Source: Paludibacteraceae bacterium (GTDB lineage Bacteria; Bacteroidota; Bacteroidia; Bacteroidales; Paludibacteraceae). From it: a DNA stretch of 64,000 nucleotides. The stretch spans positions 124,001-188,000 of the forward strand of contig JAFTOD010000004.1 of assembly GCA_017451525.1 (NCBI GenBank), given 5' to 3'. Positions within the stretch are counted from its first letter, which is position 1; each line of letters begins with the position of its first letter. A program made the translations under genes and the position numbers. The notes below the pieces were generated by a model. It ran no database searches and was not told the origin of the DNA. It saw only the letters and a list, made by a program, of their open reading frames with translations. Positions 9,848-46,316 of this stretch are shown piece by piece.

Positions 9848-9890
9848 GCCACTGAGTGGCGCGTTATCCGATAACCAGCGACTATGTCGC
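9848..9890. repeat. Pair of 3-base-loop palindromes abutting sdhB
   Basis: GCCAC-TGA-GTGGC at 9848-9860 and GCGAC-TAT-GTCGC at 9878-9890, separated by a spacer containing GTTATC-C-GATAAC. The second palindrome ends two bases before the sdhB stop codon. These belong to the tiny-palindrome family seen through the window. Confidence 0.8.
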
Positions 9891-9892
9891 AA

Positions 9893-10648
9893 TTAGTCTT
9901 TCAGTTTTGCGCAGAGGAACTCGCGGTTGAGGCGAGCGATGTTAGCCAAAGATACTTGTTTTGGGCACTCAGCTGCACATGCACCTGTGTTGGTACAGTT
10001 ACCAAAGCCCAACTCATCCATCTTAGCCACCATTGCCTTAGCACGAGCAGCTGCCTCTACCTTACCTTGTGGCAAGAGAGCCAGTTGGCTTACCTTAGCA
10101 GAAACGAACAACATAGCAGAACCGTTCTTACATGCAGCAGCACAAGCACCGCAACCGATACAACTTGCAGCATCCATTGCCTCGTCAGCGTGAGCCTTAG
10201 GAATTGGAATGGCGTTTGCATCAGGTACACCACCTGTATTAACTGACACGAAACCACCCGCTTGCATAATCTTGTCGTATGCCTCGCGATCCACCATCAA
10301 GTCCTTGATTACAGGGAATGCACGGCTACGCCATGGCTCGATAGTGATAGTCTCGCCATCTTTGAACTTACGCATGTGCAATTGGCAAGTGGTGATAGCA
10401 CTGTCTGGTCCGTGTGGGTGACCGTTGACATACATAGAGCACATACCGCAGATACCCTCGCGGCAGTCGTGGTCGAATGCGATAGGATCTTTGTGCTCGC
10501 TGATGAGTTGCTCGTTGAGGATGTCAATCATCTCCAAGAACGAAGCACCTTGGAAGATGTGTTTGAGTTCGTAGGTCTCGAAATGACCTTCTGCCTTTGG
10601 TCCTGCCTGTCTCCAGACACGCACCTTTATGTCTATATAATTATCCAT
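9893..10648 (-). CDS. sdhB: Succinate dehydrogenase/fumarate reductase iron-sulfur subunit
   Basis: 251 residues, normal for the family. It passes electrons between the flavoprotein and cytochrome b in the inner membrane complex. Ligands for the 2Fe-2S centre are Cys62, Cys67, Cys70 and Cys88. The two further clusters are bound by [11 protein letters not shown] (Cys162/165/168/172) and by Cys217, Cys223 and Cys227 ([12 protein letters not shown]). It is the last gene of sdhCAB, 5 bases after sdhA. In Bacteroidales this complex usually works as a fumarate reductase in anaerobic respiration; the sequence alone does not settle the direction. Confidence 0.95.
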
Positions 10649-10653
10649 ATTGC

Positions 10654-12642
10654 TTAGCTCTTATAGTTACGAGTTTTACGTTCGGTGAATTCATAGTCGA
10701 GTGGCTCCTTGATAAGCTCTGGTTCGCTGTCCTCGCCAGTGTATTTCCAGCAAGCTACATAAGAGAACTTATCGTCTTGACGCATTGCCTCGCCCTCTGG
10801 AGTTTGATACTCCTCGCGGAAGTGACCACCGCAAGACTCCTCACGGTTCAAAGCGTCAACTGCCATCAAACGACCAATCTCAATAAAGTCTGCCAAGCGG
10901 AGAGCCTTCTCCAACTCGTTGTTCAATGAGTTAGCCTCACCTGGGATATATACATTGCTCCAGAACTCTTTCTTGATTGCGTCAATCTTCTCAACAGCAG
11001 TCTTCAAGCTCTCAGCTGTACGACCCATACCTACGAAATCCCACATCACAAGACCAAGCTCCTTGTGGATAGAATCCACAGAACGCTTACCTTGGATAGC
11101 CATGAGTTTCTCAATCTTCTCGGTGATACCCTTCTCTGCCTCAGCGAACTCTGGGAGGTCGGTGGACATACGTGGAACGCCGATTTGGTCGCTCAAGTAG
11201 TTTTGGATAGTATAAGGCAATACGAAGTAACCGTCAGCCAAACCTTGCATCAACGCAGAAGCACCGAGGCGGTTAGCACCGTGGTCAGAGAAGTTGGCCT
11301 CACCAATACAGAAGAGACCCTTCACGCTGGTTTGCAACTCATAGTCCACCCAGATACCACCCATAGTATAGTGGATAGCAGGGAAGATCATCATTGGCTC
11401 CTCGTATGGGTTCTCGTCCACGATCTTCTCGTACATTTGGAAGAGGTTACCATACTTTTGCTCTACTACATCCTTGCCAAGGCGTTGGATAGCGTCAGAG
11501 AAATCGAGGAACACAGCAAGACCCGTATTGTTTACACCATAGCCCTTGTCGCAACGCTCTTTAGCAGCGCGAGAAGCCACGTCACGTGGAACGAGGTTAC
11601 CGAAAGCAGGATAACGGCGCTCCAAGTAGTAGTCGCGATCCTCTTCTGGGATGTCTTTACCCTTGATCTCACCGCGTTGGAGGCGTTGAGCGTCTTCAAG
11701 TTTCTTAGGTACCCAGATACGACCATCGTTACGGAGTGACTCTGACATCAAAGTGAGTTTAGATTGGAAGTCACCATGCTTTGGAATACAAGTTGGGTGG
11801 ATTTGTGCGTAGCAAGGGTTAGCGAAGTAAGCACCATGGCGGTACATTTGCATAGCAGCCGAACCGTTAGATGCCATCGCGTTGGTAGAGAGGAAGAAAG
11901 CATTACCATAACCACCAGTAGCTACAACCACAGCGTGACCGAAATAACGCTCGATGCGGCCAGTAACAAGGTTACGAGCGATGATACCACGAGCGCGGTT
12001 CTCGCCGTTCTCGTCCTTGATCATAACTACATCCAACATCTCGTGACGGTTGTACATCTTCACTTTGCCCTTACCGATTTGGCGGCTGAGTGCAGAGTAA
12101 GCACCGAGGAGGAGCTGTTGACCTGTTTGACCCTTAGCATAGAAAGTACGAGATACTTGCGCACCACCGAAAGAACGGTTGTCGAGCAAGCCGCCGTATT
12201 CGCGAGCGAAAGGAACACCTTGAGCCACACATTGGTCGATGATGCTGTTGCTCACCTCAGCAAGACGGTACACGTTTGCCTCACGAGCACGGTAGTCACC
12301 ACCCTTGATTGTGTCGTAGAAGAGGCGATAAACAGAGTCGCCATCGTTTTGGTAGTTCTTAGCCGCGTTGATACCACCTTGTGCAGCGATAGAGTGTGCA
12401 CGACGTGGAGAGTCTTGGATACAGAAGTTGAGGACGTTGAAGCCCATCTCTGCGAGAGAAGCCGCAGCAGATGCACCAGCCAAACCAGTACCAACTACGA
12501 TCACGTCAAGACGACGTTTGTTGGCAGGGTTGACCAACTTCTGATGGTCTTTGTAATTGGTCCATTTCTTCTCGAGTGGACCAGCAGGGATCTTCGCCAT
12601 TTCAGGCGTAATAACCTGCGCAGTTGCTTTTTTTGTTGCCAT
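10654..12642 (-). CDS. sdhA: Succinate dehydrogenase/fumarate reductase flavoprotein subunit
   Basis: 662 residues. FAD dinucleotide-binding motif [10 protein letters not shown] at about 49-58. His83 in AHSIAAQGG is at the position of the covalently flavinylated histidine of the family. The substrate-site segment QIHPTCIP follows mid-protein. It catalyses interconversion of succinate and fumarate at the cytoplasmic face. It sits between sdhC and sdhB but is separated from sdhC by an unusual repeat-filled spacer (12643-12836). Long antisense open frames over this gene are codon-usage shadows. Confidence 0.96.
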
Positions 12643-12690
12643 ATGTTTTTGAATTTTTTATGCAAAAAAATGTTATTGGTTCGCCTGTCG

Positions 12691-12831
12691 GCTCACGAAA
12701 ATGATTCGCTTTGCTCATGAAAATGGTTCGCTTTGCTCACGAAATTAGTTTATTCGCATACTTTTACGTCGAAGACCATTTTCGCTTTAGCCATTTTCGC
12801 GGCTATGCCGCCATGTTCGTGCCGAAGGCAC
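12691..12831. repeat. 22-bp direct repeats and two triloop palindromes between sdhC and sdhA
   Basis: Units starting GCTCACGAAAATG (12691) and GCTCATGAAAATG (12713) are 22 bases long, each ending TTCGCTTT; a partial third copy starts at 12735. Further on are GCGGC-TAT-GCCGC (12799-12811) and GTGCC-GAA-GGCAC (12819-12831). All of this would lie inside the sdhCAB message. Confidence 0.85.
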
Positions 12832-12836
12832 TTATT

Positions 12837-13562
12837 TTATACGCAGAGCATGCCGATACCGTAGCCAAGATAGTAGAGAACTACGATAGCGAAGAGACCT
12901 GCAACCAAAGTTGCTACTACAGCGCTAATCACTTTCACGCGCTTCATCCATACGAGGTTGTTAAAGCCCATTGTGTGAAGAGCAGACCATACGCCATGAC
13001 GGAGGTGGAACCACAAAGCGGTCAACCATACGAGGTACAATACGCAGTACACTTGACCCCAGATAGGAGTAGTGAACAACGCTTTTACCATACCTGCACC
13101 ATCAGTTGGAGCATAAACAGTACCAAAAGTAGCTACTGCAAAGTCCTCAGCACCGCACATGTGCATAATCTCAGTAAACTGCATCTTGAACCAGAAGTTA
13201 GCCAAGTGAAGAACGATGAAACCAATCACCACGAAGCCAAGAACGAGCATGTTCTCCGACTCCCACTCAACGCCTTCGCGCTTAGCAGTAACCGCATAGC
13301 GGTCTTTACCGCGAGCCATACGGTTTTGGATTGTCAGATAGATAGCATAGAGGAAGTGAATGAGCACGAGTGCGCCCAAGCCCAATGTTGCTACCAATGC
13401 ATACCAATTTGCGCCCAAAACGGAGCAAATCCAGTTGTAAGCCTCCTCCGAGAACACCAAAGCCAAGTTCATGCAGCCATGGAAAAGCAGGAAGAAGACC
13501 AAGCCCAAGCCCGAAATACTCATAACGAGCTTACGACCAATAGATGAATCTTTTAACCACAT
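12837..13562 (-). CDS. sdhC: Succinate dehydrogenase cytochrome b558 subunit
   Basis: 241 residues with five hydrophobic segments, matching the single-subunit b558-type membrane anchor (SdhC/FrdC family of Bacteroidota and Firmicutes) rather than the separate C and D anchors of proteobacteria. Conserved histidines that could bind haem occur in the membrane segments (LLFHGCMNLA near the N-terminus, VLIHFLYA, IVLHLANFWF, LWFHLRHGVW). It carries electrons to or from menaquinone. First gene of the operon, with a good promoter directly upstream. Confidence 0.93.
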   Translation of the reverse strand: MWLKDSSIGRKLVMSISGLGLVFFLLFHGCMNLALVFSEEAYNWICSVLGANWYALVATLGLGALVLIHFLYAIYLTIQNRMARGKDRYAVTAKREGVEWESENMLVLGFVVIGFIVLHLANFWFKMQFTEIMHMCGAEDFAVATFGTVYAPTDGAGMVKALFTTPIWGQVYCVLYLVWLTALWFHLRHGVWSALHTMGFNNLVWMKRVKVISAVVATLVAGLFAIVVLYYLGYGIGMLCV

Positions 13563-13660
13563 AAGTTTTTTAGTTTATTAATTTATTAGTTGATTTGTTT
13601 ATATGCAATTTATTGTTACTAAGTTTTTAATGCATAGAAATATGCACACCTATCAGCGTG

Positions 13661-13691
13661 CAAAGTTACAAAAAATATTTCACTCTACCAA
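13661..13691 (-). promoter_or_regulatory. Promoter of sdhCAB
   Basis: Minus-strand -33 TTG at 13691-13689 and -7 TAACTTTG at 13668-13661, with 20 bases between. The leader to the sdhC ATG is close to 95 bases. Confidence 0.75.
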
Positions 13692-13791
13692 ATTTATTGT
13701 TAAAATGTGTTGTAGAATATAAAAAACATGTATTATATTCCTAAATTAACAATTCGTCTACTGAAAAATACTATTTTCTTGAATATAGATA

Positions 13792-13822
13792 TTGTGTATG
13801 TCAAAAAAAAATAGTAATTTTG
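13792..13822 (+). promoter_or_regulatory. Promoter of the YfhO-like gene
   Basis: -33 TTG at 13792-13794 and -7 TAATTTTG at 13815-13822, with 20 bases between. The start codon is 28 bases downstream of the -7 box. Confidence 0.75.
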
Positions 13823-13850
13823 CGCACAAAATTGCTAAAACGTAAACGAT

Positions 13851-16448
13851 ATGAATATGAAAATAGATTGGAAGAAACTGGTGCCCTATGCCGTGGCTAT
13901 TGTGGCATTTGTGGCGATAGCAATGATTTATTGTGCACCTCTGCTGGAGGGTAAAGTGCTAGTGCAAGGTGATGTCAACAACTGGAAAGGTGCTGCACAA
14001 GAGGCACTGGAATACAAAGCCAAGACGGGTAACGCTACATCTTGGACCAACTCCATGTTTGGTGGTATGCCTACCTACCAAATCACAGGTAGTTTGCCAT
14101 CAAGTAAATTTCGTCAAGTAATATCGGATGCATTGCATCTCGGATTCCAAGACAGCAATCCCTTTGGACTAGTGTTTGCCTATTTTGTAGGCTTCTTCAT
14201 CATGCTGCTTTGTTTTGGCGTCAATCCTTGGTTGAGTCTCATAGGTGCTCTGGCAATGGGATTGAGTAGCTACTTCTTTATCATCATTCCTGCTGGACAC
14301 GTTACCAAAGCAATAGCTATCAGCTACTTAGCACCTATCATAGGCGGATTCCACCTGATTATGCAGCGTAAGTATTGGGTGGGCGCTCCGTTAATCATAT
14401 TTTATGGTTTTCTGGGTATTGCTTCACACGCGCAGATGACCTATTATATATTCTTATTGATAGGTGTGATGGCATGTGCTGAACTCTATATCCATATCCG
14501 CGAGAAACGTTGGAAAGATTTGGGCATATCAGTTGGCGTTCTTGCTATCAGTTTGCTTCTAGTGTTTGGCACAAAATGGAGTTGGTTTGAGATGAATCAG
14601 TCTTATCTCAAAGAGACTATGCGTGGCGGACATTCAGAACTAACATCTAACAGCGATAGCGGTCCAACTTCTAACAGCAATAGCGGTCTTAGTCTTGACT
14701 ACGCTACCGCATGGAGCTATGGTGTGGATGAGACAATGACCTTCCTTATTCCTAACTGGGAAGGTGGTGCGAGTGGCTATAATGTGGGCGAGAAGTCGCA
14801 ACTTTGCGAGACAATGAAGGATAATGGCGTGCCTAAACGCTCTGCCGAGCAGTTCTGCCGACAAGTGCCTACCTATCGTGGAGAGAAGGCCTTTACCAGT
14901 GGCCCTGTGTATATGGGAGCGATTATCTGCTTCTTGTTTGTACTGGGCTTGCTGATTGTGCCAGGACCATACAAATGGGCACTATTGGTGGCTACACTCT
15001 TCTCTGTGGCGTTGGCGTGGGGAAGAAACATGATGTGGCTCACGGAATTGTTCTTCAACTATTTCCCAATGTACAACAAGTTCCGCGCAGTGGAGAGTAT
15101 CCTCGTAGTGGCAGAGATTACGATGCCGTTGCTGGGTATTTTGGCTCTGCAGCAGATTGTGGATAAAAAGATAGCATGGGAGAAACTGCGTGTAAATATG
15201 TTCATCGCTGGCGGTGTGACTGCGGGCTTGTGCCTCTTCTTTGCATTGTTTGCAAGCGTGGTGGATGTTACCAGCAGTTATGATGCACAATGGGTGAACC
15301 AAGTGCCTGCATGGCTGCGCGATGCTATCTTCGATGAGCGTACTGCTATGATCAAAGCCGATGCATGGCGTTCGTTTATCTTCATCGCTTTGGGCTTTGC
15401 AGTGGTATATTGGTATGCTTGGAAGTTAAATACCCAGCCTCTCGCCTCATCGCCTTATCGCCTTATCGCCTTTTATGGTGCATTAGCAGTATTAGTACTC
15501 GCAGACATGTTGCCTGTTAATAAGCGTTTCTTTGGCAATGACCATTTCGTAAAAGCTAAAGATGCGGATGCGTATTTTGCTATGCAGCCATACGAGCAAC
15601 AGATTCTGCAAGATGAATCGTATTATCGTGTGTTGAACTTGGCTACTAATACGTTCAATGATGCGCGCACAAGCTACCGACTGAAGTCTATTGGTGGTTA
15701 TTCCGCAGCCAAACTGCGCCGTTATCAGGACTTGATTGATGAGCATATCTCCAAAGAGATGAATCCATTGATGCAAACAGTGATGCGCACACAAGGTTTT
15801 ATGCTACCTGATGAGAACGAAGGCAAAGATTTCCCTGTTCTGAATATGCTCAATATGAAGTATGCGGTGGTGCCATTGCAAGGTGGAAAACAAGCCCCCG
15901 TGCAGAATCCATATGCTATGGGCAACTGTTGGTTTGTGGATGAGGTGATTTTGGTGGATACGCCAGACGAGGAGTGCGCTTTGCTTAGCGAGATTGACTT
16001 GCACAAGCAAGCTGTAGCCGATAAGAAATTCGCTGAAGCATTGGATATTACCAAGCCCGAAGTAACACCATTGATGGCGTTTGATGAGAGCCGTATCGAA
16101 TTAACTTCGTATGCACCGAACTGCCTCCAATATGAGTCAATGAACGAGCGCAACCAAGTGGCAGTGTTCTCAGAGATCTATTATCCATACGATTGGCACT
16201 TGTATATTGTAAATGCAAATGGCGAAAAGATGGAATTGCCATTGGCTCGCGTGAACTATACGCTGCGTGCTGCGGTAATTCCTGCTGGTCACCATCAACT
16301 CCTCATGGAGTTCCGCCCACATGCTATGCAAACGGATAAATGGTGTATGGCAATATCTATTATGATTCTGATATTATGCCTAATAGGCTTCGGGTTACGT
16401 TGGCGCGGAAGGAAATCAATTTGTTCCCTTTTTGAGGTTGCAAAATAA
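13851..16448 (+). CDS. YfhO-family integral membrane protein
   Basis: 865 residues with about a dozen hydrophobic segments, a large extracytoplasmic C-terminal region and a final membrane helix, as in the YfhO family (GT-C-like membrane proteins thought to act in cell-surface glycosylation). The family landmark FGGMPTYQI lies near residue 64. Two stretches look like in-frame repeat insertions: residues about 264-283 (TSNSDSGPTSNSNSG) and about 528-541 (built from GCCTTATC units). The gene's last 89 bases overlap the 3' end of the convergent GT2 gene. The family call is good; the exact substrate is unknown. Confidence 0.85.
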   Translation: MNMKIDWKKLVPYAVAIVAFVAIAMIYCAPLLEGKVLVQGDVNNWKGAAQEALEYKAKTGNATSWTNSMFGGMPTYQITGSLPSSKFRQVISDALHLGFQDSNPFGLVFAYFVGFFIMLLCFGVNPWLSLIGALAMGLSSYFFIIIPAGHVTKAIAISYLAPIIGGFHLIMQRKYWVGAPLIIFYGFLGIASHAQMTYYIFLLIGVMACAELYIHIREKRWKDLGISVGVLAISLLLVFGTKWSWFEMNQSYLKETMRGGHSELTSNSDSGPTSNSNSGLSLDYATAWSYGVDETMTFLIPNWEGGASGYNVGEKSQLCETMKDNGVPKRSAEQFCRQVPTYRGEKAFTSGPVYMGAIICFLFVLGLLIVPGPYKWALLVATLFSVALAWGRNMMWLTELFFNYFPMYNKFRAVESILVVAEITMPLLGILALQQIVDKKIAWEKLRVNMFIAGGVTAGLCLFFALFASVVDVTSSYDAQWVNQVPAWLRDAIFDERTAMIKADAWRSFIFIALGFAVVYWYAWKLNTQPLASSPYRLIAFYGALAVLVLADMLPVNKRFFGNDHFVKAKDADAYFAMQPYEQQILQDESYYRVLNLATNTFNDARTSYRLKSIGGYSAAKLRRYQDLIDEHISKEMNPLMQTVMRTQGFMLPDENEGKDFPVLNMLNMKYAVVPLQGGKQAPVQNPYAMGNCWFVDEVILVDTPDEECALLSEIDLHKQAVADKKFAEALDITKPEVTPLMAFDESRIELTSYAPNCLQYESMNERNQVAVFSEIYYPYDWHLYIVNANGEKMELPLARVNYTLRAAVIPAGHHQLLMEFRPHAMQTDKWCMAISIMILILCLIGFGLRWRGRKSICSLFEVAK
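14640..14697. repeat. In-frame repeat insertion in the YfhO-like gene
   Basis: Two copies of a unit of about 24 bases, CTAACAGCnATAGCGGTC with variants, encode a Ser/Asn/Thr/Gly-rich run. The same words (CTAACAGC, AGCGGTC) recur inside uvrA at 33960-34014 and, in reverse, in the cmk-ispH spacer near 31180. Confidence 0.7.
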
Positions 16449-23087: not shown

Positions 23088-23145
23088 GTTTAGTGTTTAG
23101 TGAACGCCCTTAGGGCTACTGTTTAGTGCTTAGAGGTAGGGTCAA
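23088..23145. repeat. Triloop repeat forming the 3' end of thiL
   Basis: GTTTAG words flank GAACGCCC-TTA-GGGCTAC (palindrome GCCC-TTA-GGGC at 23106-23116). The repeat supplies the thiL stop codon and its final codons. Confidence 0.8.
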
Positions 23146-24991: not shown

Positions 24992-25043
24992 CCATTGCTG
25001 TTTAGAGGACGCTCTACGAGCTACAGTTTAGAGGCTAGAGTTT
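24992..25043. repeat. Triloop repeat spacer between rpe and comEC
   Basis: GTTTAGAGGACGC then palindrome GCTC-TAC-GAGC (25011-25021), followed by CTACAGTTTAGAGGCTAGAG. It runs up to the comEC start codon. Confidence 0.8.
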
Positions 25044-30498: not shown

Positions 30499-31173
30499 AT
30501 GAAACCAATTATTGTAGCCATTGATGGCTATTCATCTTGTGGCAAGTCCACAATCGCAAAGGCACTCGCCAAGTATGCAGGTTATACCTATGTCGATACA
30601 GGAGCGATGTACCGCGCTGTGGCGCTGTATGCATTTAGGTTATTAGGCGATGAGGCGATAAGGCGAGAGGCGGTGATTCCTATTTTGACCAACATACATA
30701 TAGGTTTTATTCAAGCTGCAGATGGTCAGCATGTGACGCTGAATGGCGAGGATGTAGAGTCGCAGATTCGTACACTGGAGATAGGTAACTTGGCTTCGCA
30801 AATCTCTACTATCAAAGAGGTACGTGCGTTCCTTGTGGCACAGCAACAAGCGATGGGCGAAAAGAAAGGTATTGTGATGGACGGAAGGGATATAGGTACA
30901 GTGGTTTTCCCACAAGCAGAGCTAAAACTCTTTCTCACCGCTTCGCCCGAAGTGCGTGCAGAGCGTCGATTCAAAGAGTTGGAAGCTAAAGGTGAGAAGC
31001 CAGTTTTAGAGGAAGTATTGGCTGATGTGAACGACCGCGACTATCGCGACACACACCGTGCGGAGAGTCCACTACGTCAGGCAGAAGATGCTGTAGTAGT
31101 GGATAATAGCGAGATGACACGTGAGGAGCAGATGGCGAAAATCGTGGAGATTTTCGATCGCGCTACGCGCTGA
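30499..31173 (+). CDS. cmk: Cytidylate kinase
   Basis: 224 residues. P-loop DGYSSCGKST at 8-17, YVDTGAMYRAVALYA and MDGRDIGTVVFP are the family motifs. It phosphorylates CMP and dCMP, and so recycles the CMP released by CDP/CMP-linked transferases. Residues about 46-58 (LLGDEAIRREAV) are encoded by GGCGATGA/GGCGATAA units and look like an inserted repeat. The last codons overlap a GCGC-TAC-GCGC palindrome (31160-31170). Confidence 0.93.
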   Translation: MKPIIVAIDGYSSCGKSTIAKALAKYAGYTYVDTGAMYRAVALYAFRLLGDEAIRREAVIPILTNIHIGFIQAADGQHVTLNGEDVESQIRTLEIGNLASQISTIKEVRAFLVAQQQAMGEKKGIVMDGRDIGTVVFPQAELKLFLTASPEVRAERRFKELEAKGEKPVLEEVLADVNDRDYRDTHRAESPLRQAEDAVVVDNSEMTREEQMAKIVEIFDRATR

Positions 31174-31298
31174 TAGATGTTAGACCGCTGCGCTATTGTT
31201 TAGGGGACGCTCGCAGGGCGAGCTATTGGTTAGAGGTTAGAGGTTAAAGGCGAGAGGTTAAAGGTTAAAGGCGAGAGGTTAAAGGTTAAAGGCGAAGG
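31160..31298. repeat. Composite repeat spacer between cmk and ispH with heptamer array
   Basis: Contains GCGC-TAC-GCGC (31160-31170), GCTCGC-AGG-GCGAGC (31209-31223) and then, from 31228 to 31298, ten consecutive units: GGTTAGA twice, GGTTAAA, GGCGAGA, GGTTAAA twice, GGCGAGA, GGTTAAA twice and GGCGAAGG. The ispH start codon follows the last unit directly. Confidence 0.9.
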
Positions 31299-32195
31299 AT
31301 GAAGATTACGATAGATGAGAATTCGGGATTTTGTTTCGGTGTGACGACTGCTATTGAGACTGCCGAACGTGAACTACAGAAGGGGCAACTCTTCTGCCTC
31401 GGAGATATTGTACACAATGGTCAAGAAGTGGAGCGACTAGACAAACTGGGATTAGAAACCATTGACTATGACGACTTACGCACTTTGCACAATGTACGCG
31501 TGTTGCTGCGCGCTCATGGAGAGCCACCTAGTACCTATCATATCGCCAAACGCAATAATATTGAGATTATTGATGCTTCGTGTCCTGTGGTATTGCACTT
31601 GCAAAAGCGTATTCGTGATACCTATTTGCAGCATCATGGCACAGACGCACAGATTGTCATTTTCGGCAAAAAAGGACACGCCGAGGTGATTGGATTAGAG
31701 GGACAAACCAATAATACGGCTATCGTGATTGAGAGTATCCACGATTTGGATAAACTGAACTATGAGCACCCAATATACCTCTTCTCACAAACGACTAAGT
31801 CGGTAGAGGAGTTTCATGCGATAGTAGATAAGATTAAGGAGATGAGGCGATTAGGCGAAGAGGCGAAAGGCGAGGAGATTGTATTTGAATATCACGATAC
31901 GATTTGTAGGAATGTAGCTAATCGTGTGAAGAAATTGCAGGATTTTGCTCGGAGTAACGATGTGGTGGTGTTTGTAGGAGGAAAGAAGTCATCGAATGCA
32001 AAAGTGCTGTACAATCATTGTTTGGAAGTGAACTCTAGCACGGTTTTTGTGAGTAGTGAAGCAGACCTTACACCTGAGATACTGCAGCAATGCCACGCGG
32101 CAGAACGAGTGGGTATCTGCGGAGCGACCTCTACCCCGAAGTGGCTGATGGAGCAGCTTCGCTGCAGTTTAGAGAACGGCGCAAAGCGCCTATAG
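31299..32195 (+). CDS. ispH: 4-hydroxy-3-methylbut-2-enyl diphosphate reductase
   Basis: 298 residues. Last enzyme of the MEP isoprenoid pathway, with an iron-sulfur cluster held by cysteines in GFCFGV (about 12), DASCPVV (about 98) and ICGATSTP near the C-terminus. HGEPPS and GGKKSSNAKVL are further family motifs. Residues about 183-196 (MRRLGEEAKGEE) come from AGGCGAnn units. The final residues (RCSLENGAKRL) are encoded by a triloop repeat containing GGCGC-AAA-GCGCC (32178-32190), so the C-terminus is repeat-derived. Confidence 0.93.
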   Translation: MKITIDENSGFCFGVTTAIETAERELQKGQLFCLGDIVHNGQEVERLDKLGLETIDYDDLRTLHNVRVLLRAHGEPPSTYHIAKRNNIEIIDASCPVVLHLQKRIRDTYLQHHGTDAQIVIFGKKGHAEVIGLEGQTNNTAIVIESIHDLDKLNYEHPIYLFSQTTKSVEEFHAIVDKIKEMRRLGEEAKGEEIVFEYHDTICRNVANRVKKLQDFARSNDVVVFVGGKKSSNAKVLYNHCLEVNSSTVFVSSEADLTPEILQQCHAAERVGICGATSTPKWLMEQLRCSLENGAKRL

Positions 32196-37484: not shown

Positions 37485-37488
37485 ATTT

Positions 37489-40047: not shown

Positions 40048-40116
40048 AGTGGATTAAATGTCTCAAAGTCTTTAGGTTTCAAAGTTTAATAATGCGTAAT
40101 CTGCCAAAATGGCAGA

Positions 40117-40147
40117 CAAAGGTACTACAAAAAATGCACATACGCAA
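40117..40147 (-). promoter_or_regulatory. Promoter of the sigma-54 activator operon
   Basis: Minus-strand -33 TTG at 40147-40145 and -7 TACCTTTG at 40124-40117, with 20 bases between. A CTGCC-AAAAT-GGCAG palindrome sits just downstream (40101-40115) near the expected transcription start. Confidence 0.78.
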
Positions 40148-40190
40148 GAAAAGCGAGTATTTTTTTCAAAAAAGATATATTTTATCTATC

Positions 40191-40253
40191 TGTAATACAA
40201 TCCTATTGTTCAGCGGAAGTTTATTCACAGATGAACAGTAGGATTGTATTACA
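40191..40253. repeat. 22-bp inverted repeat with 19-base loop
   Basis: The left arm 40191-40212 and right arm 40232-40253 are reverse complements except at one position, which could still pair as G-U in RNA. There is no T run on either side, so it is not an ordinary terminator. No gene lies within about 140 bases to the left or 900 to the right. Confidence 0.85.
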
Positions 40254-40487
40254 AAAGGTGCAAACCGATTTTTGAAAAAATGCGAGCGTTCTTGCGTATT
40301 TACCGCATTTTGCGAACGTACTTTCGAGGTGGGATTGCCCAAAGGCAATGTCGGTGTCCTCGAAGGTACTATTTCTTTTTGACATACGCAAATTTACGAG
40401 CACTTTTTTTGAAAAACACCATTATCCCATAGCCCTCGTAGTGTCCCCATAGACCTCAGGGCGTCCATTAAGTATTCCTTTATCATT

Positions 40488-40545
40488 TACGTAGGATATA
40501 CGTAACATATACGTAGGATATACGTAGGATAATCGGGTTGTTAAC
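40488..40545. repeat. 11-bp tandem array, TACGTAGGATA type, copy 2
   Basis: Four 11-base units: TACGTAGGATA (40488), TACGTAACATA (40499) and TACGTAGGATA twice (40510, 40521). They are followed by ATCGGGTTGTTAACC with a GGTT-GTT-AACC palindrome. Copy 1 ends the same way but with loop AAT. Confidence 0.9.
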
Positions 40546-40748
40546 CTGAGAATACCCTATCTTCCTCCTATCTTCTATGTACTTCTTTCCCGCTATCTTT
40601 CCCGAAACCATCTCGTTATCACTCTGATACCACTCCATTGCCATCCAGTACTTTCCCCGTACCTTGCTACTTATCCTCCGCTCGACTGCGTTAATTCGCC
40701 GAGTATCCCCGCCTCTACACCCTACACTTTTCACTTTTCTCCTCAAAA

Positions 40749-40780
40749 ATTTGCACACCTGCAAATTTTTCACTACCTTT
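40749..40780 (+). promoter_or_regulatory. Promoter of the candidate structured RNA
   Basis: -33 TTTG at 40749-40752 and -7 TACCTTTG at 40773-40780, with 20 bases between. Transcription is expected to start around 40786. Confidence 0.8.
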
Positions 40781-40785
40781 GCAAC

Positions 40786-41104
40786 CGAATCCTACGCTGG
40801 AGGGAAATATGTCCTGCGAAAAGCGTTTCGCAAAGGGTCTTTCTTATGGGTAGGTTTTGACATATTTAAATAGCGTTTATTGACGCTTTGCGTTTGACAA
40901 ATCGAAAACTTAGCAACTTTTCTTATTTGGGTCAAAATCAAAGTAACAGTAAATGCCTATGGGTATGATTATATCCATGCTACATCTCATTTAGGTGTAG
41001 TGTGTTTTCATACCAGCGTAGGTTTCCTGTTGTTTATTTGACCCAAAAGGCAATGCTAAGGCCTCGATTTGTGAATAAGCAACTCGAGGTCTACGCTTTT
41101 TTTT
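40786..41104 (+). ncRNA. Candidate structured non-coding RNA of about 320 bases
   Basis: A strong promoter upstream and a terminator at the end delimit a stretch dense in helices. AAATATGTC (40804-40812) pairs with GACATATTT (40858-40866) around the hairpin TGCGAAA-AGCG-TTTCGCA (40814-40831). AGCGT (40871) pairs with ACGCT (40882). TTTGGGTCAAA (40926-40936) pairs with TTTGACCCAAA (41037-41047), enclosing GGTATGA/TCATACC and a CTACATC/GGTGTAG hairpin. CCTACGCTGG (40790-40799) can pair perfectly with CCAGCGTAGG (41013-41022). Motifs of tmRNA, RNase P RNA and SRP RNA were not found. It may act on its own (a 6S-like regulator cannot be excluded) or as a long leader of the LRR gene at 41192. Confidence 0.7.
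41062..41104 (+). terminator. Terminator of the candidate RNA
   Basis: CCTCGA (41062-41067) pairs with TCGAGG (41084-41089), extended by TTG/CAA, and the segment ends in eight T residues (41097-41104). CTACGCT just before the T run could alternatively pair with AGCGTAG at 41015-41021. Confidence 0.7.
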
Positions 41105-41191
41105 GTGTGTACAAACATGCAAAAAAATGAAAACAACAATAATAATATCAAAAACCGATGGGCCAATGGGATATAACTGGCAAAGAGAATC

Positions 41192-41998
41192 ATGAAAAAA
41201 ATTTTACTATCGCTACTTAGTACAGTTATAATGCTATCAGTAGCAACGAGTATTCAAGCACAAGAAACCTTTGAGGTTGATGGAATTAAGTATGAAATAA
41301 CGGACGCAAGTGCACAGACTGTAAAAATCATCGACAATTGGTACACCTCAAAAGACTATGTGCTTGTAAGTTCTGTTACGCATAATGATATTACTTATAA
41401 GGTGACAGAAATCGGTGATTATGCTTTTGCATCATGTTATATCACAGGCGTTGTTATACCAGAAGGAATCGAAGTAATTGGTAAACAAGCATTTTATAAT
41501 TCTAGTTTTACATCTTTAGAGCTTCCTTCAACCGTAAAAAGCATAGGCGTAAATGCATTTAGAGATTGTAAATATCTCAAAGATTTAGTATTAAATGAAG
41601 GCCTAACTACTATTGACAATGCTGCTTTCTACATGTGTGTAAGTTTGACTGAGATTACGCTTCCTTCCACACTTACGTCTATGAATAATGCATTCATGGG
41701 ATCTGCATTTATTACGACGGTTGTTTCTAAAATTCAAGCACCTATGACGATCACATACGATACGTTCCACCCTGACGTATATAGCAAGGCTGTTCTCCAA
41801 GTTCCAGCAGGAACAAAAGAAGCGTACGAGGCCGTTGATTGTTGGAGACGTTTTCAAACTATTACCGAAACAGGTACTCCAACAGCACTGCACAACACTA
41901 TTATTAATGAAGAAATACAAAAGAAGATTCTAAACGGTCAACTCCTCATCCTCCGCGATGGTAAGACCTATAATGTGATGGGTGCAGAAGTCAAATAA
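41192..41998 (+). CDS. Secreted BspA-type leucine-rich repeat protein with short C-terminal tail
   Basis: 268 residues. Signal peptide of about 24 residues (ends SIQAQE). Residues about 55-190 are LRR_5 repeats of the BspA kind (VTEIGDYAFASC, EVIGKQAFYNS, KSIGVNAFRDC, TTIDNAAFYMC). The last 30 residues carry KKILNGQLLILRDGKTYNV, the same kind of tail as the protein ending at 9765 and unlike the T9SS type A domain. Likely surface-exposed; BspA proteins bind host or matrix proteins in some oral species, which is only an analogy. It begins 88 bases after the candidate RNA's terminator and has no clear promoter of its own. Confidence 0.85.
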   Translation: MKKILLSLLSTVIMLSVATSIQAQETFEVDGIKYEITDASAQTVKIIDNWYTSKDYVLVSSVTHNDITYKVTEIGDYAFASCYITGVVIPEGIEVIGKQAFYNSSFTSLELPSTVKSIGVNAFRDCKYLKDLVLNEGLTTIDNAAFYMCVSLTEITLPSTLTSMNNAFMGSAFITTVVSKIQAPMTITYDTFHPDVYSKAVLQVPAGTKEAYEAVDCWRRFQTITETGTPTALHNTIINEEIQKKILNGQLLILRDGKTYNVMGAEVK

Positions 41999-42021
41999 TT
42001 GCAGTACCACATACCAACCCC

Positions 42022-42050
42022 AAACCGAGCGGCATCACCGCTCGGTTTTT
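42022..42050 (+). terminator. Intrinsic terminator after the LRR gene
   Basis: ACCGAGCGG (42024-42032) pairs with CCGCTCGGT (42038-42046), loop CATCA, followed by T residues. Confidence 0.88.
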
Positions 42051-42060
42051 CATTACCCCT

Positions 42061-42150
42061 TATCCCTTACCCAATAGCCCAACGGGCGTCCTATAGCTTC
42101 GCGTCCTTTACCCAATAGCCCAACGGGCGTCCCATAGCTTCGCGTCCATT
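42061..42150. repeat. Tandem pair of triloop repeats (reverse orientation)
   Basis: Two copies of a unit of about 42 bases. Each holds ATAGCCC-AAC-GGGCGTCC (palindromes at 42077-42087 and 42118-42128) followed by ATAGCTTCGCGTCC. Read on the other strand this is GGACGC...GCTAT twice per unit, matching the spacers at 23101, 25009, 31206 and 32175. Confidence 0.88.
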
Positions 42151-42182
42151 ATCCTGAAAATTGCGAAAAATTTGCTATTTTC

Positions 42183-42213
42183 TTGCATACCTGCAAATAA
42201 TTTTGTACCTTTG
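42183..42213 (+). promoter_or_regulatory. Promoter of the Orf3-like/miaA pair
   Basis: -33 TTG at 42183-42185 and -7 TACCTTTG at 42206-42213, with 20 bases between. Confidence 0.8.
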
Positions 42214-42253
42214 CGCCAAATTGTAAACTATCAACTGTCAATAGTAAACAAAT

Positions 42254-42805
42254 ATGATATACAAGATTACTTTTTCTTGCGACGATGCAGATGATTTTCG
42301 TCGCGTATTTGAAGCCGATAGTGATGCTACATTTTTGGAGTTGCATCAAGCTATTCTCAAGAGCGCTGGTTATCCAGATGACCAAATGACTTCGTTCTTT
42401 ATGTGCAACGATCGTTGGGAGAAAGAGCAAGAGGTCACTCTCGTAGAGATGGGTAGCAACTTCGAGTATGACAACATGATTATGGAGTCAACGCGCCTCA
42501 GCGACCTTATGGAAGAACGCGGACAACGACTCATCTACGTCTTCGATCCAATGTACGAACGCTATTTCTTCGGCAATCTAACAGAGATTATGCCTGGGTA
42601 TTGCAACGGCGTAGCATGTACCGAGTCGCGCGGAGATGCGCCTAAGCAGTTGCAAACTGAGGATATGGCGGAGGCTGCGCGTGCGAAGGATGCCAAGGAT
42701 TGGGGTTTGGACGACGACCTCTTTGGTGATAGTCAATTCGACATGGATGACTTGGATGCTGACGGCTTCCAAGACTTGAGCTTCGACGACGGCTCCATGT
42801 TCTAA
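42254..42805 (+). CDS. pRiA4b Orf3-like (IS1096 passenger TnpR-type) protein
   Basis: 183 residues, acidic. The N-terminal 120 residues follow the plasmid pRiA4b ORF-3-like family (YKITFSCDDADDFRRVFE, TFLELHQAIL, SFFMCNDRWEKE, LIYVFDPM). The C-terminal 60 residues are Asp-rich and low in complexity. No transposase or inverted repeats are nearby, so the family's mobile-element name is misleading here. It overlaps miaA (TAATG), so the two are translated together. Function unknown. Confidence 0.82.
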   Translation: MIYKITFSCDDADDFRRVFEADSDATFLELHQAILKSAGYPDDQMTSFFMCNDRWEKEQEVTLVEMGSNFEYDNMIMESTRLSDLMEERGQRLIYVFDPMYERYFFGNLTEIMPGYCNGVACTESRGDAPKQLQTEDMAEAARAKDAKDWGLDDDLFGDSQFDMDDLDADGFQDLSFDDGSMF

Positions 42806-43695
42806 TGCCTACGCTGGTTGTTATATTAGGTCCTACGGGCGTAGGCAAAACCGAACTCAGTCTCCGCTTGGCAGAAGAGTACGGTTGCCCCATTGTGAGT
42901 GCCGATTCGCGCCAAATATATAGCGACTTGCCTATCGGTACGGCAGCGCCTACAATGGATGAACAAGCGCGAGTGAAGCATTATTTTGTAGGCTGCAAGG
43001 AACTATACGAAACCTACAACGCGGGGCAATATGCACGCGATTGCAGGGTATTGCTGAGCGAACTATTCCAGACACACGAACGTGTGGTGATGGTGGGAGG
43101 CAGTATGATGTATATTGATGCAGTATGCAACGGTTTGGATGATATTCCCGATGTACCAGCGGCTATTCGTCAGGAAGTGCGCAAGGCGTACGACCAATAC
43201 GGATTAGAGTGGTTGCAGACAGAAGTACAGCACTTAGACCCTGCCTATTGGGCAGAGGTGGATCAGCACAATCCACAACGATTGATGCATTGCGTGGAGA
43301 TATGTCGAGTGACAGGGAAACCCTATTCCTGTTTGAGAAAGAATGGCGCAACCGCTGCGGAACGAGAATTTGATGTCGAATATCGTGTGGTAGCCCGTCC
43401 GCGTGAAGAATTGTACGAACGTATCAACCAGCGCGTACACCAGATGATTGAGGCAGGATTGCTGGATGAAGCACGAGCTGCGTTAGAGAAAGTGGGAGCG
43501 ATGGAGAATGGCGTGCTCAAAGATGATGTTGAACTGCCTAATAGCCTCAACACAGTGGGATACAAAGAACTATTACCCTTTTTCAGAGGAGAATATACGC
43601 TCGAAAGAGCCATTGAATTGATACAGCAAAATAGCCGCCATTACGCCAAACGCCAAATGACGTGGTGGAGGTCAAAAGGATTTAATTTTGAATAA
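42805..43695 (+). CDS. miaA: tRNA dimethylallyltransferase
   Basis: 296 residues. P-loop GPTGVGKT at 9-16, then SADSRQIYSDLPIGTAAP and GGSMMYIDAVCNGLDDIP. It adds a dimethylallyl group to A37 of tRNAs reading UNN codons, using dimethylallyl diphosphate made by the MEP pathway (ispH is in this window). The start codon overlaps the stop of the previous gene. Confidence 0.95.
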   Translation: MPTLVVILGPTGVGKTELSLRLAEEYGCPIVSADSRQIYSDLPIGTAAPTMDEQARVKHYFVGCKELYETYNAGQYARDCRVLLSELFQTHERVVMVGGSMMYIDAVCNGLDDIPDVPAAIRQEVRKAYDQYGLEWLQTEVQHLDPAYWAEVDQHNPQRLMHCVEICRVTGKPYSCLRKNGATAAEREFDVEYRVVARPREELYERINQRVHQMIEAGLLDEARAALEKVGAMENGVLKDDVELPNSLNTVGYKELLPFFRGEYTLERAIELIQQNSRHYAKRQMTWWRSKGFNFE

Positions 43696-43719
43696 TCAAC
43701 ATCTTGATTTCAAAGAAGT

Positions 43720-44766
43720 ATGAAGCAAATAGTAACTATATTTTGTGCGCTAGCATTGCTGGTTGGCTGCAAAAAAGTGACAGTAGATTTTACATACTCA
43801 CCTACAGCACCCAAGGCAGGAGAAACTATCAAGTTTACCAACAATAGTAGCGCAGGCGAGAGTTGGGCATGGACCTTTGGCGATAATACAACCAGTGTGA
43901 CCAAAAATCCGAGCAAAGTGTATAAAAAACCAGGTGAGTATTTGGTAACACTGATGGTGGATAGTGCCAAATATCAGACACGTAGCCAACTAATCACTGT
44001 TTACGACACGATACCTACTTTTGTAGTATCGTCCGATTCTATCCTACACTACCATGATGTCACTTTGAAGGCGAATGTATATAATCCCTTTAAGTACGAG
44101 CTGACTTATCAGTGGACTTTACCCGATAATGCAATCATTGTGGCAGGCAACTTGAATAGCGCATCGGTGGAAGTGTACTTCACTACTGCTGGAGCCGCAG
44201 AAGTTGGGTTGACGATTCTCCAAAAGGACAAGCAGTATGATATTGAGCGTACACTCACCATTCATCCTGCCAAGGCACCTGCTATCGTCATGCGCAAAAC
44301 GGACAAGACAGTGGCGCGTCAGCGCATAATCAACGACCGTTTAGAGCAACCTGCCAATGCCACTAGCCAAGATGTACATCTCATTGAGCAAGCATGCGAT
44401 ACAGCAATCACTTTCAATGGCACTACTTTCACAGCAAGTCAATTGCCTGCGCAGGTGGCAGGTCTTGCTGGTATGCAGGTGGAGCATCTGCAAATAGATG
44501 CTATGCAAATGAAGTGGTATATCACCACGCCTAATGGATTATTTGTCGCCTCCTTTGATGGTAGCAATATCACTCCTATTGATGCAGAAGCTACAGGAGC
44601 TATCTTTGTGGACGATACGCGCAGCCGTATCTATTGGGCGACCCTATCGGGAGTGTTTGCCATGCCATTAGTCAAGAGCAAAAACAATCAGTTCACTACT
44701 ACGCCTCAGCAATATAATGAACTCAATAACATTGACCTAATCATAGTCAATAACACGCCTCAATAA
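43720..44766 (+). CDS. PKD-domain lipoprotein
   Basis: 348 residues. Lipoprotein signal with Cys17 (LLVGCKK). A PKD domain at about residues 22-92 has the SWAWTFGDN and PGEYLVTLMV landmarks. A second Ig-like domain (about 95-190) and a C-terminal region with beta-propeller-like phrases (WYITTPNGLFVASFDG, IYWATLSGVFAMPL) follow. Likely outer-membrane attached; ligand unknown. It is 24 bases after miaA and 38 before glgA, so it may share their transcript. Confidence 0.8.
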   Translation: MKQIVTIFCALALLVGCKKVTVDFTYSPTAPKAGETIKFTNNSSAGESWAWTFGDNTTSVTKNPSKVYKKPGEYLVTLMVDSAKYQTRSQLITVYDTIPTFVVSSDSILHYHDVTLKANVYNPFKYELTYQWTLPDNAIIVAGNLNSASVEVYFTTAGAAEVGLTILQKDKQYDIERTLTIHPAKAPAIVMRKTDKTVARQRIINDRLEQPANATSQDVHLIEQACDTAITFNGTTFTASQLPAQVAGLAGMQVEHLQIDAMQMKWYITTPNGLFVASFDGSNITPIDAEATGAIFVDDTRSRIYWATLSGVFAMPLVKSKNNQFTTTPQQYNELNNIDLIIVNNTPQ

Positions 44767-44804
44767 CTCATCACTTATAACTCATAGTTCATCACTCACT
44801 ACAC

Positions 44805-46316
44805 ATGCAACCAGAATACATTTTCGAAACTAGTTGGGAAGTGTGCAATCGTGTAGGCGGCATTTATGCCGTTCTCTCTACGCGTGCCGCTTCTATGCAA
44901 GCAGAATACAAAGATAAAGTTATTTTCTTCGGTCCCGATTTCGGTGACCACTCCAATCTCACCTTCAAGGAGAGCAAGACCCTCCTCAAAGGCTGGCGCC
45001 CTAAAAGTGTGCGCGTAGGTCGTTGGCAAGTGCCAGGCAACCCTATTGCCGTACTCCTCAAATGGGACGAACTGTGGGCAAAAAAAGACCAAATCTTCGG
45101 TCATATGTGGGAGAAGTTTGGCATCCAAAGCCATGCTGCTTATGGCGATTATGATGAGAGTTGCCTCTTCGCTTATGCCGTCGGACAAGTAGCTGAGAGT
45201 TTGTATCGTCATTTGGATATGCCTACCACCGTGATGCATTGCAACGAGTGGCAAACGGCATTCACTATCCTTTACTTGCGCGAACATTGTCCCGCTATCG
45301 GTACGCTCTTTACCACCCATGCCACCAGCATTGGTCGCAGTATCGCAGGCAATGGAAAGCCGCTATACGATTGCTTTGATGGCTTCCATGGCGATCAGAT
45401 GGCGCAGGAACTGAATATGGTCAGCAAGCACTCTGCCGAGAAGAAAGCAGCGCACTATGCCGACTGCTTCACTACTGTGAGCAACATCACTGCTCGCGAG
45501 TGTAAACAACTGCTTGACAAACCAGTGGATATTGTTACCCCAAATGGCTTTGAACAGGGCTTCGTACCACATGGCAAGGACTTTGATGCCGCGCGCAAGC
45601 GTGCACGCAATACCTTAATATCCCTCGCACGCGCGAAGGGCATTGACGCGCAAGGCACCGATATGCTGATTGGTACGGCAGGTCGCTTCGAATGGAAGAA
45701 CAAAGGCATTGATGTGTTTCTGGAGGCAATGAGGCAATTAGGCGAAGCTAATCTACTATCTACAGGCGCAGCCGATCTACAGCCCGTAGGGCGATCTACA
45801 GCGCAGCGATCTATCATCGCTTTTGTCATGATCCCTTACCTCGACCGCCAAGACTTCACCGTCGGCAATGTGCATGTCATCTTCGTACCTACTTATCTCA
45901 ACGGAAACGATGGTGTGCTAAACTTGCCTTATTACGACCTACTCATCGGTCTAGACTTGACTGTCTTCCCAAGTTATTACGAGCCATGGGGATATACGCC
46001 ACTAGAGAGTATGGCGTTCCATGTGCCTACCATCACAACCAGCTTGAGTGGCTATGGCGTTTGGTGCGAGGAACAAGGCTGTACTACGATTGACAAGGGT
46101 GTCGCGGTTATCTATCGCAACGACAGCAATACCGACGATGTAATTAATCATATTGTCAATACGATTGAGTATTACCTTACGCTCTCGCCACAGAAGACGG
46201 CTGCTATCCGCAAATCGGCTGTTCGATTGGCATTGCAAGCCGAGTGGAAGAACTTTTTCACCTACTACCGCGATGCCTATAGTATTGCTCTGAAGAAAGC
46301 GTTTGCTCGACAATAA
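44805..46316 (+). CDS. Glycogen synthase, shortened middle region
   Basis: 503 residues. The N-terminal half (FETSWEVCNRVGGIYAVLSTRA, FTTHATSIGRSIAGN) and C-terminal half (FPSYYEPWGYTPLESMAFHVPTI) match the GT3/GT5-like glycogen synthase of Bacteroidales, which makes the alpha-1,4 glucan chain. Between about residues 309 and 339 the expected sequence is replaced by a run coded by GATCTACA words and triloop palindromes (LSTGAADLQPVGRSTAQRS), and the protein is shorter than I remember for relatives in this region. Both halves of the active site are still recognisable. A strong terminator follows. Confidence 0.88.
   Translation: MQPEYIFETSWEVCNRVGGIYAVLSTRAASMQAEYKDKVIFFGPDFGDHSNLTFKESKTLLKGWRPKSVRVGRWQVPGNPIAVLLKWDELWAKKDQIFGHMWEKFGIQSHAAYGDYDESCLFAYAVGQVAESLYRHLDMPTTVMHCNEWQTAFTILYLREHCPAIGTLFTTHATSIGRSIAGNGKPLYDCFDGFHGDQMAQELNMVSKHSAEKKAAHYADCFTTVSNITARECKQLLDKPVDIVTPNGFEQGFVPHGKDFDAARKRARNTLISLARAKGIDAQGTDMLIGTAGRFEWKNKGIDVFLEAMRQLGEANLLSTGAADLQPVGRSTAQRSIIAFVMIPYLDRQDFTVGNVHVIFVPTYLNGNDGVLNLPYYDLLIGLDLTVFPSYYEPWGYTPLESMAFHVPTITTSLSGYGVWCEEQGCTTIDKGVAVIYRNDSNTDDVINHIVNTIEYYLTLSPQKTAAIRKSAVRLALQAEWKNFFTYYRDAYSIALKKAFARQ
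45750..45813. repeat. Triloop palindromes inside glgA
   Basis: GGC-GCA-GCC (45765-45773) and GCCC-GTA-GGGC (45782-45792), separated and followed by the constant spacer GATCTACA, then GCGCAGC. The frame is kept throughout. Confidence 0.8.

Follow-up and report, generated by a model that had tools for sequence, protein, structure and literature searches.

Arrays of tiny GC-rich hairpins with changing stems form a dispersed repeat family in uncultured gut Bacteroidales

Along a 64,000-nucleotide stretch of DNA from a Paludibacteraceae bacterium (assembly GCA_017451525.1, contig JAFTOD010000004.1, positions 124,001 to 188,000; hereafter the window) lie very small GC-rich palindromes whose stems differ from copy to copy. 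An initial annotation had listed 13 of them, and all 13 are present at the exact coordinates. The locus raises the question of whether such palindromes belong together and, if so, by what process stems of differing sequence are spread and kept self-complementary. The arrays of tiny GC-rich hairpins described here are a dispersed family in a group of uncultured gut bacteria, and this family is larger than the 13 listed palindromes. As to its origin, we give an even chance to the reading that it is a family resembling repetitive extragenic palindromic (REP) sequences, made of tiny hairpin units with changing stems, that spreads by template switching at snap-back hairpins. A scan with named loci groups the window with metagenome-assembled genomes of Paludibacteraceae and other Bacteroidales, many of herbivore-gut origin; the closest UvrA proteins are from yak and water buffalo, at 89-90% identity. 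An Rfam scan of the window returned no family at its gathering score.

A unit consists of a palindromic GC-rich core of 7-16 nt followed by a word of 7-9 nt, and the units are arranged head to tail. The core mostly starts with GC or GG (212/232 units); the stem measures 2-6 bp in 231 of the 232, and the loop measures 3 nt in 179. Within hairpin pairs, the spacing is 8 nt in 9/12 cases in the window's own genome (G000; 1.84 Mb, 84% complete) and in 19/22 cases in a sister species (G014; 98% complete). These are the two genomes richest in arrays, with G014 the richest. The commonest word is TATNGGAC, which together with the core makes up the frame GGACGC..GCTAT that the initial annotation had described as common to many of the palindromes. 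In its strict form, this frame encloses three of the 13 (31209, 42077, and 42118), but the remaining ten deviate from it. Near-variants of the frame surround the palindromes at 23106 (GAAC..TAC), 25011 (GGAC..TAC), and 32178 (GAAC..TAT), while the GATC/GATCTACA word family accounts for those at 31160, 45765, and 45782. The palindromes at 9848, 9878, 12799, and 12819 lie among other words, and their membership is less certain. Units beyond the initial list were found at 31187, 32153, 42096, 42137, and 45801, and several units lie inside open reading frames (ORFs). Further words include GATCTACA (window positions 45765-45807), TGTTAGACC, TACAGAAC, TAATGGAC, and, at one G000 locus, CATYAAC; the feet seen are GGAC, GATC, GACC, GAAC, and others. 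The word is near-constant along one array and varies between loci and lineages. Words also resemble adjacent hairpin-free heptamer tracts, e.g., GGTTAGA/GGTTAAA at 31228-31290.

The suspicion that GC-rich palindromes were simply picked out by eye finds some footing in the window itself. Palindromes with arms of at least 5 nt and a 3-nt loop number 103 there, compared with 69.4 +/- 7.9 in 20 dinucleotide shuffles, and those with GC-rich arms of at least 4 nt and a 3-nt loop number 47, compared with 33.9 +/- 6.1. At arms of at least 5 nt, the dinucleotide shuffles are likewise exceeded for 4-nt loops (103 vs. 68.9) and for 5-nt loops (117 vs. 72.3). The palindromes are thus more numerous than in composition-matched shuffles, but modestly so and with nothing special about 3-nt loops. 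The raw count is therefore weak as proof of a family, and because the excess is modest, chance is expected to account for about two-thirds of the window's N3 palindromes. It is the searches by frame that set the family apart. The strict frame GGACGC-N3..12-GCTAT occurs 34 + 42 = 76 times in G000, compared with 5 + 8 = 13 for the reversed pattern, and 68 + 99 = 167 times in G014, compared with 2 + 2 = 4, which is far above the control in both genomes. Cores of the form GGAC..TA[TC] with a stem of at least 4 bp number 50 in G000 and 96 in G014, while five altered frames gave 1-6 and 0-3, respectively. In spacers, 12 hairpin pairs separated by 4-12 nt were counted in G000 (0.75 +/- 0.7 in 20 shuffles) and 22 in G014 (0.8 +/- 0.7), an excess that applies to stretches chosen around frame matches, and hence enriched, rather than to the genome average. 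Together with the re-dealing of arms and the matching sites without arrays described below, the frame and tandem-pair tests refute chance as an explanation of the family, to which we leave next to no probability; single isolated palindromes may be due to chance.

The family is unevenly distributed. Across 60 relatives, the strict frame gave 16 + 13 matches vs. 3 + 10 in the genome G025, and, G014 excepted, the others were near or below the control. A uniform distribution over the genus was rejected, as only G014 and, weakly, G025 (29 vs. 13) clearly exceed the control among 36 other genomes of the same genus. The pattern GCTCGCNNNGCGAGC was found in 11/295 Bacteroidales genomes, with 12 sites in G000 and seven, accompanied by another word, in G192. 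A few other Bacteroidales genera have related hairpins that are accompanied by different words. In G192 (L213, L222, and L335-L340), which belongs to another Bacteroidales family, GCTCGC-GCA-GCGAGC hairpins stand with TTATGAC-type words, and a repeated palindrome, TCACC-TGC-GGTGA, was also observed.

Both arms of the stems change together, as the initial annotation had noted. By inner length from 3 to 12, the frame GGACGC..GCTA has 50, 1, 0, 1, 34, 18, 36, 10, 20, and 3 matches. Covariation was assessed in approximately 830 kb of G000 and G014, with a null obtained by re-dealing the 3' arms 500 times. The 36 matches to GGACGC-N9-GCTA (the reversed frame gave 1) represent 26 distinct cores, whose 5' arms are of 12 kinds, and 71/78 of the arm cells are paired, compared with a re-dealt mean of 34.9 and a maximum of 48. 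For the other inner lengths, the paired cells amount to 16/22 at 8 bases (mean 11.0, maximum 15), 17/21 at 10 bases (mean 7.9, maximum 17), 55/60 at 11 bases (mean 41.7, maximum 52), and 10/12 at 12 bases (mean 5.7, maximum 10). In addition, a double change was found at an orthologous priA unit, which, within nearly the same flanks, reads GGGC-AGA-GCCC in G000 and GGCC-AAA-GGCC in G014, i.e., G-C has become C-G on both sides. Templated palindrome formation is possible.

Gain and loss among relatives, for which a comparison of matching spacers had been proposed at the outset, were observed in two pairs of genomes. For G000 and G014, 16 hand-picked pairs of stretches were compared (15 from these two genomes and one with L102), not all of which contain arrays. 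In several pairs, an array in G014 corresponds to a short spacer in G000 (786 vs. 51, 241 vs. 36, and 211 vs. 41 bases, flanks included). In one pair (L072/L098), the array is retained with fewer units, and in another (L069/L056), arrays are present in both species with different words. The second comparison concerns G331 and G332, two genomes reached through the named loci: two matching spacers have hairpins in G332 and none in G331, and a third array is retained with two changes, both within words. At one position in G014 (G014:C7:32395-33130, L092), a PF05635 gene lies between two hairpin arrays, while G000 has few bases between the genes there. PF05635, the 23S rRNA intervening-sequence protein, was considered as a driver and set aside; G014 has 7 matches and G000 none.

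Arrays are also found inside genes. In a scan of four genomes, one or more unit-like matches were found in each of 98 ORFs, several of them by chance; with a stricter unit form, the stretches fetched contain 14 such ORFs in G000, 21 in G014, 17 in G332, and 9 in G331. An ortholog in another fetched genome is available for 27 hairpin-bearing gene families, and it is shorter and hairpin-free in 10/27, a number counted by eye on alignments and from a set in which at least one family (L285) matched by chance and is identical in another genome. According to Pfam, the ten include RecJ, PriA, NadA, a GT28 glycosyltransferase, a MATE transporter, a carbon-nitrogen hydrolase, an Ala_racemase_N (YggS-like) protein, and three others. 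Genes with in-frame arrays in relatives or elsewhere include recQ, recJ, priA, nadA, and aroA. Arrays have grown at orthologous sites: two priA sites have two further units in G014 relative to G000. In the YggS-like, MATE, and TatD loops, hairpin arrays in one species correspond to in-frame, hairpin-free word tracts in another (G000 genes vs. L291, L294, and L091).

Within the window, one such case is a glycogen synthase-like gene (PF05693; 44805..46316, plus strand), in whose 503-residue product the array at 45765..45807 is in frame. The array reads [GGCGCAGCC]-GATCTACA-[GCCCGTAGGGC]-GATCTACA-[GCGCAGC] on the plus strand and encodes residues 321-335. At this site, more distant members of the genus are shorter (in rows read in frame only), a relative (L312) has the same array with changes in loop and word, and the sequence is different in G014 and G025. 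An AlphaFold2 model built with 23 sequences has a mean predicted local distance difference test (pLDDT) score of 85.9 and 16 residues below 50. The only run of at least three residues with a pLDDT below 50 is 321-332, within the encoded peptide, and these residues are modeled as a low-confidence loop between a helix and a strand. In this manner, arrays inside conserved genes, which lie in frame in loops or at protein ends, lengthen the predicted proteins by short segments.

Most triloops have the form GNA or ANA and are closed by C-G. Of 72 distinct cores with a 3-nt loop, C-G is the closing pair in 67, and 25 GNA plus 32 ANA loops, with either strand counted, account for 57. Background triloop palindromes from the same DNA, with arms of at least 5 nt and no GGAC or GTCC near by, gave 147 GNA + 206 ANA = 353/1031. 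Counted by unit, 103 GNA and 50 ANA loops occur among 174 triloop units (either strand). ANA loops can likewise be closed by a sheared pair. GNA or GNNA loops on at least two G-C pairs have been described, in part of one account, as extraordinarily stable, nuclease-resistant DNA mini-hairpins, with a melting temperature of 78 C for GCGAAGC (PMC4686876). Of the 174 triloop units, 103 have this d(GCGNAGC)-type form, while the other 71 do not. The minimal cores GC-TTC-GC, GC-TGC-GC, and GC-TAC-GC make up 28, 9, and 8 of the 50 matches with three inner bases, and GCTTCGC, GCTACGC, and GCTGCGC are the complements of GCGAAGC, GCGTAGC, and GCGCAGC. Because these loops are of a class reported to be ultra-stable as DNA, they hint, without proving it, that the structure being kept is one of DNA rather than of RNA.

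A process that could produce such a family begins with single-stranded DNA, which during replication or repair would fold back on itself as exceptionally stable mini-hairpins of the d(GC-GNA-GC) type. Through template switching at the hairpins and at the words, units would be copied to new places, and slippage together with tandem duplication would then lengthen and shorten the arrays. Arm-to-arm copying would maintain pairing while the sequence drifts, and insertions that break genes would be lost, for which reason, on this proposal, those inside genes are in frame. Movement of the arrays is proposed here from sequence comparison. Template switching is favored because a search for the Y1 transposase domain (Y1_Tnp, PF01797) gave 0 matches in G000 and 0 in G014, with G331, G332, and other transposase families outside the search. 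It is further favored because arm homogenization by this route is reported for other organisms in passages of two studies (PMC8604942; PMC7202029), and because human Pol theta is described, in part of a third, as extending stem-loops from two terminal base pairs (PMC11292364). A dedicated enzyme may be lacking altogether. In its boldest form, the proposal makes the family a protein-free DNA parasite, with d(GCGNAGC)-class mini-hairpins that spread and diversify by host replication, snap-back priming, and template switching, with no transposase; this we consider doubtful.

Movement by a transposase, whether of the REP-associated tyrosine transposase (RAYT)/IS200 type or another, encoded on the genome or a plasmid, would make the family a classical REP or miniature inverted-repeat transposable element (MITE). 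Dispersed palindromes with presence and absence at matching sites do resemble MITE movement, and a gene could have been missed in G000, which is 84% complete. However, the 98% complete G014 is richest in arrays and equally gave 0 matches to Y1_Tnp, and there is neither a constant stem nor a constant tag besides the word. No target duplication was seen in the printed pairs, for which no dedicated test was made. A transposase of any kind is accordingly given a slim probability, and a RAYT/IS200 mover in particular was rejected, with 0 matches in G000 and G014. Plain microsatellite instability, in which each locus makes its own words and hairpins by slippage and nothing is copied between loci, would explain why words are alike within an array. 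It would also fit the hairpin-free heptamer tracts that are common beside arrays and that, judging from the DNA or the peptide, replace arrays in the same YggS-like, MATE, and TatD loops. In addition, heptamers are reported, in part of a survey of repeats, to be the most abundant 5-11-nt class in most surveyed genomes, with slippage proposed as their origin (PMC4679880). Slippage alone nevertheless fails to explain why dozens of unlinked loci share an 8-nt word and a stock of cores, which leaves this explanation unlikely. We attach a similarly low probability to RNA-level elements, i.e., mRNA hairpins acting as 3'-end stabilizers or as processing or attenuation sites, whose stems would covary under selection for the RNA hairpin. 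Array spacers lie mostly between genes of one direction (15/17 in G000 and 29/34 in G014), as do most spacers (159/213 and 163/214). In such spacers the frame leans along the direction of the genes in 29/44 cases (8:7 in G000, 21:8 in G014), the directions being taken from crude ORF calls, some of them spurious, inside which 26 units (G000) and 55 units (G014) lie. Stems that change less than loops would also suit an RNA, and passages of a REP survey argue that REPs act as RNA (PMC3733652). Against RNA, the orientation is almost even in G000, the loops belong to a class reported to be special in DNA (PMC4686876, in part), and many units lie within coding sequence on either strand. Furthermore, the array at 42077-42147 comes after a terminator-like hairpin and is probably outside the upstream transcript.

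Several observations weigh against spreading by template switching with continued renewal of stems. The next relatives show a weaker excess, with 33 vs. 17 matches in G331 and, by a wider pattern, 89 vs. 41 in G332 and 41 vs. 28 in G333. In G011, of the same genus, 200 kb showed no hairpin excess in spacers (3.50 vs. 3.38 per 10 kb), and the process is thus not genus-wide. With seven inner bases, 19/24 arm cells are paired, which does not exceed the null (mean 16.3, maximum 21). The priA unit is the single clean compensatory change found at orthologous sites. In orthologous coding units compared between species, 4/156 arm positions and 10/74 loop positions have changed (23/28 rows), in rows that lack independence and were selected because they pair almost perfectly, a bias against arm changes. 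Five of the 28 rows were left out as lacking a family word (four with an AATC foot and one with GCGAGGGC); with all 28 included, the changes are 8/196 in arms and 15/90 in loops, and the dropped rows hold two of the three script-counted changes affecting both arms. Conservation of arms at coding sites could also be due to selection. At the recQ and iorA sites, arrays stand in opposite orientation in two species, which may reflect repeated insertion into a permissive loop or an inversion. Finally, the loop class is tied to the stem, with purine loops on GCGGC and mostly pyrimidine-first loops on GCCC. Inverted loops, which would mark template switching, are uncommon (GC-TTC-GC 28 vs. GC-GAA-GC 2). 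Most cores are therefore copies of older units rather than newly made palindromes.

The initial annotation had considered the palindromes too small for REP/RAYT elements and had known of no described element of this form. The former is correct as to size, and the search for a Y1 transposase was negative in G000 and G014. In genome position and gene invasion the family is REP-like. The latter statement is too strong, as close kinds are described in parts of three studies (PMC3733652; PMC10969869; PMC2800124). In the literature searched, comprising open-licence papers, relatives were found but no described element with the same combination of features. REPs of the GTAG and CGTC superfamilies are likewise small dispersed palindromes, mostly in spacers between one-direction or convergent genes, and sometimes lie within ORFs, adding tens of residues (Di Nocera 2013, PMC3733652, in part). 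Replication and repair genes are often hit in both cases, with uvrA, recB, and others named in that survey, and recQ, recJ, priA, a mutY-like gene, and tatD here. The same survey gives REPs a consensus stem (5-13 bp), a GTAG or CGTC tag, and a mostly head-to-head dimeric arrangement, whereas the present units have stems mostly of 2-6 bp without consensus (12 different 5' arms among 26 distinct nine-base cores), mostly 3-nt loops, and 7-9-nt words in head-to-tail order. No GTAG tag unpaired at one end was found, the feet being GGAC, GATC, GACC, GAAC, and others, and no Y1 tyrosine transposase in G000 (84% complete) or G014. Nor do the units have the features that part of the survey gives for CGTC elements (a stem of 8-9 bp, A-T first pairs, a loop of 4-5 nt, a CCA tail, and head-to-head order; PMC3733652), as their stems mostly measure 2-6 bp and start with GC or GG, their loops are of 3 nt in 179/232, and they run head to tail.

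Rickettsia palindromic elements (RPEs) resemble the family in being palindromic repeats found in frame in many unrelated genes, but they are of approximately 150 bp and encode a conserved peptide (PMC10969869, in part). In contrast, the units described here measure approximately 15-23 bp with the word (frame matches 14-22 nt) and occur in several frames and on both strands with differing peptides. Small hairpins are also dispersed in mitochondria, with Allomyces as a fungal case of double hairpin elements. The repetitive and double hairpin elements of sponge and fungal mitochondria are described as small, single or tandem hairpins, GC-rich in some sponges, that lie in spacers and genes and whose stems are kept while loops change (passages of PMC2800124). 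The present units are dispersed and tandem in the same manner, with arms changed at 4/156 and loops at 10/74 positions. They differ in lying on Bacteroidales genome contigs rather than in mitochondria, and no array of words is mentioned in the relevant passages (PMC2800124). Heptamer repeats (TAACTGA; Beggiatoaceae, Cyanobacteria, and some Bacteroidetes) share with the family short tandem 7-nt words in gene-adjacent spacers; in the part of the survey devoted to them, the word is single and fixed, and no hairpin units are described (PMC4679880). The d(GCGNAGC) mini-hairpins, of which the minimal cores are complements, are characterized in portions of one account as a chemical structure in oligonucleotides rather than a genomic repeat (PMC4686876), whereas here only the sequence form is seen. 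The family is thus REP- and RPE-like in position and gene invasion and mitochondrial-hairpin-like in its kept stems and changing loops, and it falls outside the definitions of both REPs and RPEs.

Known bacterial palindromic repeats are recognized by a family stem; here the sequence is free, and only pairing and loop class are retained. Such a separation of structure from sequence points to the DNA hairpin as the entity that is kept and offers a handle on whether palindromes arise and stay perfect by mutation, through arm-to-arm copying, or by selection. The many in-frame copies in recQ, recJ, priA, nadA, aroA, and glycogen synthase constitute a natural repeated experiment in which peptides are added to core proteins. 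Orthologous units are shared between separate genomes, so that the short low-complexity inserts seen in them appear to be real rather than assembly errors. If the family were a protein-free parasite, this lineage would keep gaining short peptides in core enzymes without a transposase, with new stems written into spacers and, in frame, into genes.

The remaining arrays of the window are as follows, with cores in square brackets. Two single units on the plus strand read GTTTAGTGAAC-[GCCCTTAGGGC]-TACTGTTTAGTG (23095..23128) and GTTTAGAGGAC-[GCTCTACGAGC]-TACAGTTTAGAGG (25000..25034). A three-unit array at 31156..31227 (plus strand), GATC-[GCGCTACGCGC]-TGATAGATGTTAGACC-[GCTGCGC]-TATTGTTTAGGGGAC-[GCTCGCAGGGCGAGC]-TATT, begins inside the cytidylate kinase gene cmk (30499..31173, plus strand; PF02224 over residues 6-219 of 224). 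Its first hairpin unit, at 31160, supplies the last codons of cmk, and the subsequent word supplies the TGA stop. The array is followed by the hairpin-free heptamer tract GGTTAGA/GGTTAAA/GGCGAGA (31228..31290, plus strand), which lies just upstream of the start codon of the IspH/LytB gene and almost reaches it. This gene (31299..32195, plus strand; PF02401 over residues 3-288 of 298) ends in a two-hairpin array, [GCAGCTTCGCTGC]-AGTTTAGAGAAC-[GGCGCAAAGCGCC]-TATAG (32153..32195, plus strand), which contains the last codons and the TAG stop of ispH. A four-unit array on the minus strand (42077..42147), where it shows the frame GGACGC..GCTAT, has the plus-strand cores GCCCAACGGGC, GCTTCGC, GCCCAACGGGC, and GCTTCGC and is made up of two 41-nt repeats that are 95% alike. 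Two groups of less certain membership, with no strand assigned, lie at 9848..9890 and 12799..12831. The former comprises GCCAC-TGA-GTGGC, GTTAT-CCG-ATAAC, and GCGAC-TAT-GTCGC with CCGATAA-type words, in a spacer that follows an intrinsic-terminator-like hairpin. In the latter, GCGGC-TAT-GCCGC and GTGCC-GAA-GGCAC are linked by the 7-nt word CATGTTC.

Two further observations concern sequences related in form. The tmRNA gene (L372, 571-960; L373, 201-590) contains GGACGCGGGTTCGAATCCCGCTAT, which by its letters matches the family frame; this fit may be due to chance, or the T-arm of tmRNA might have been a seed of the frame. A second class of palindromes with a varying inner stem has the form CACCCC-[stem-loop-stem]-CGGGGACCCCG and was seen in G000 (L064, near 19640), in G014 (L081, near 14760, and L056, near 1570), and once in frame in a glycogen synthase gene (L344, G025).

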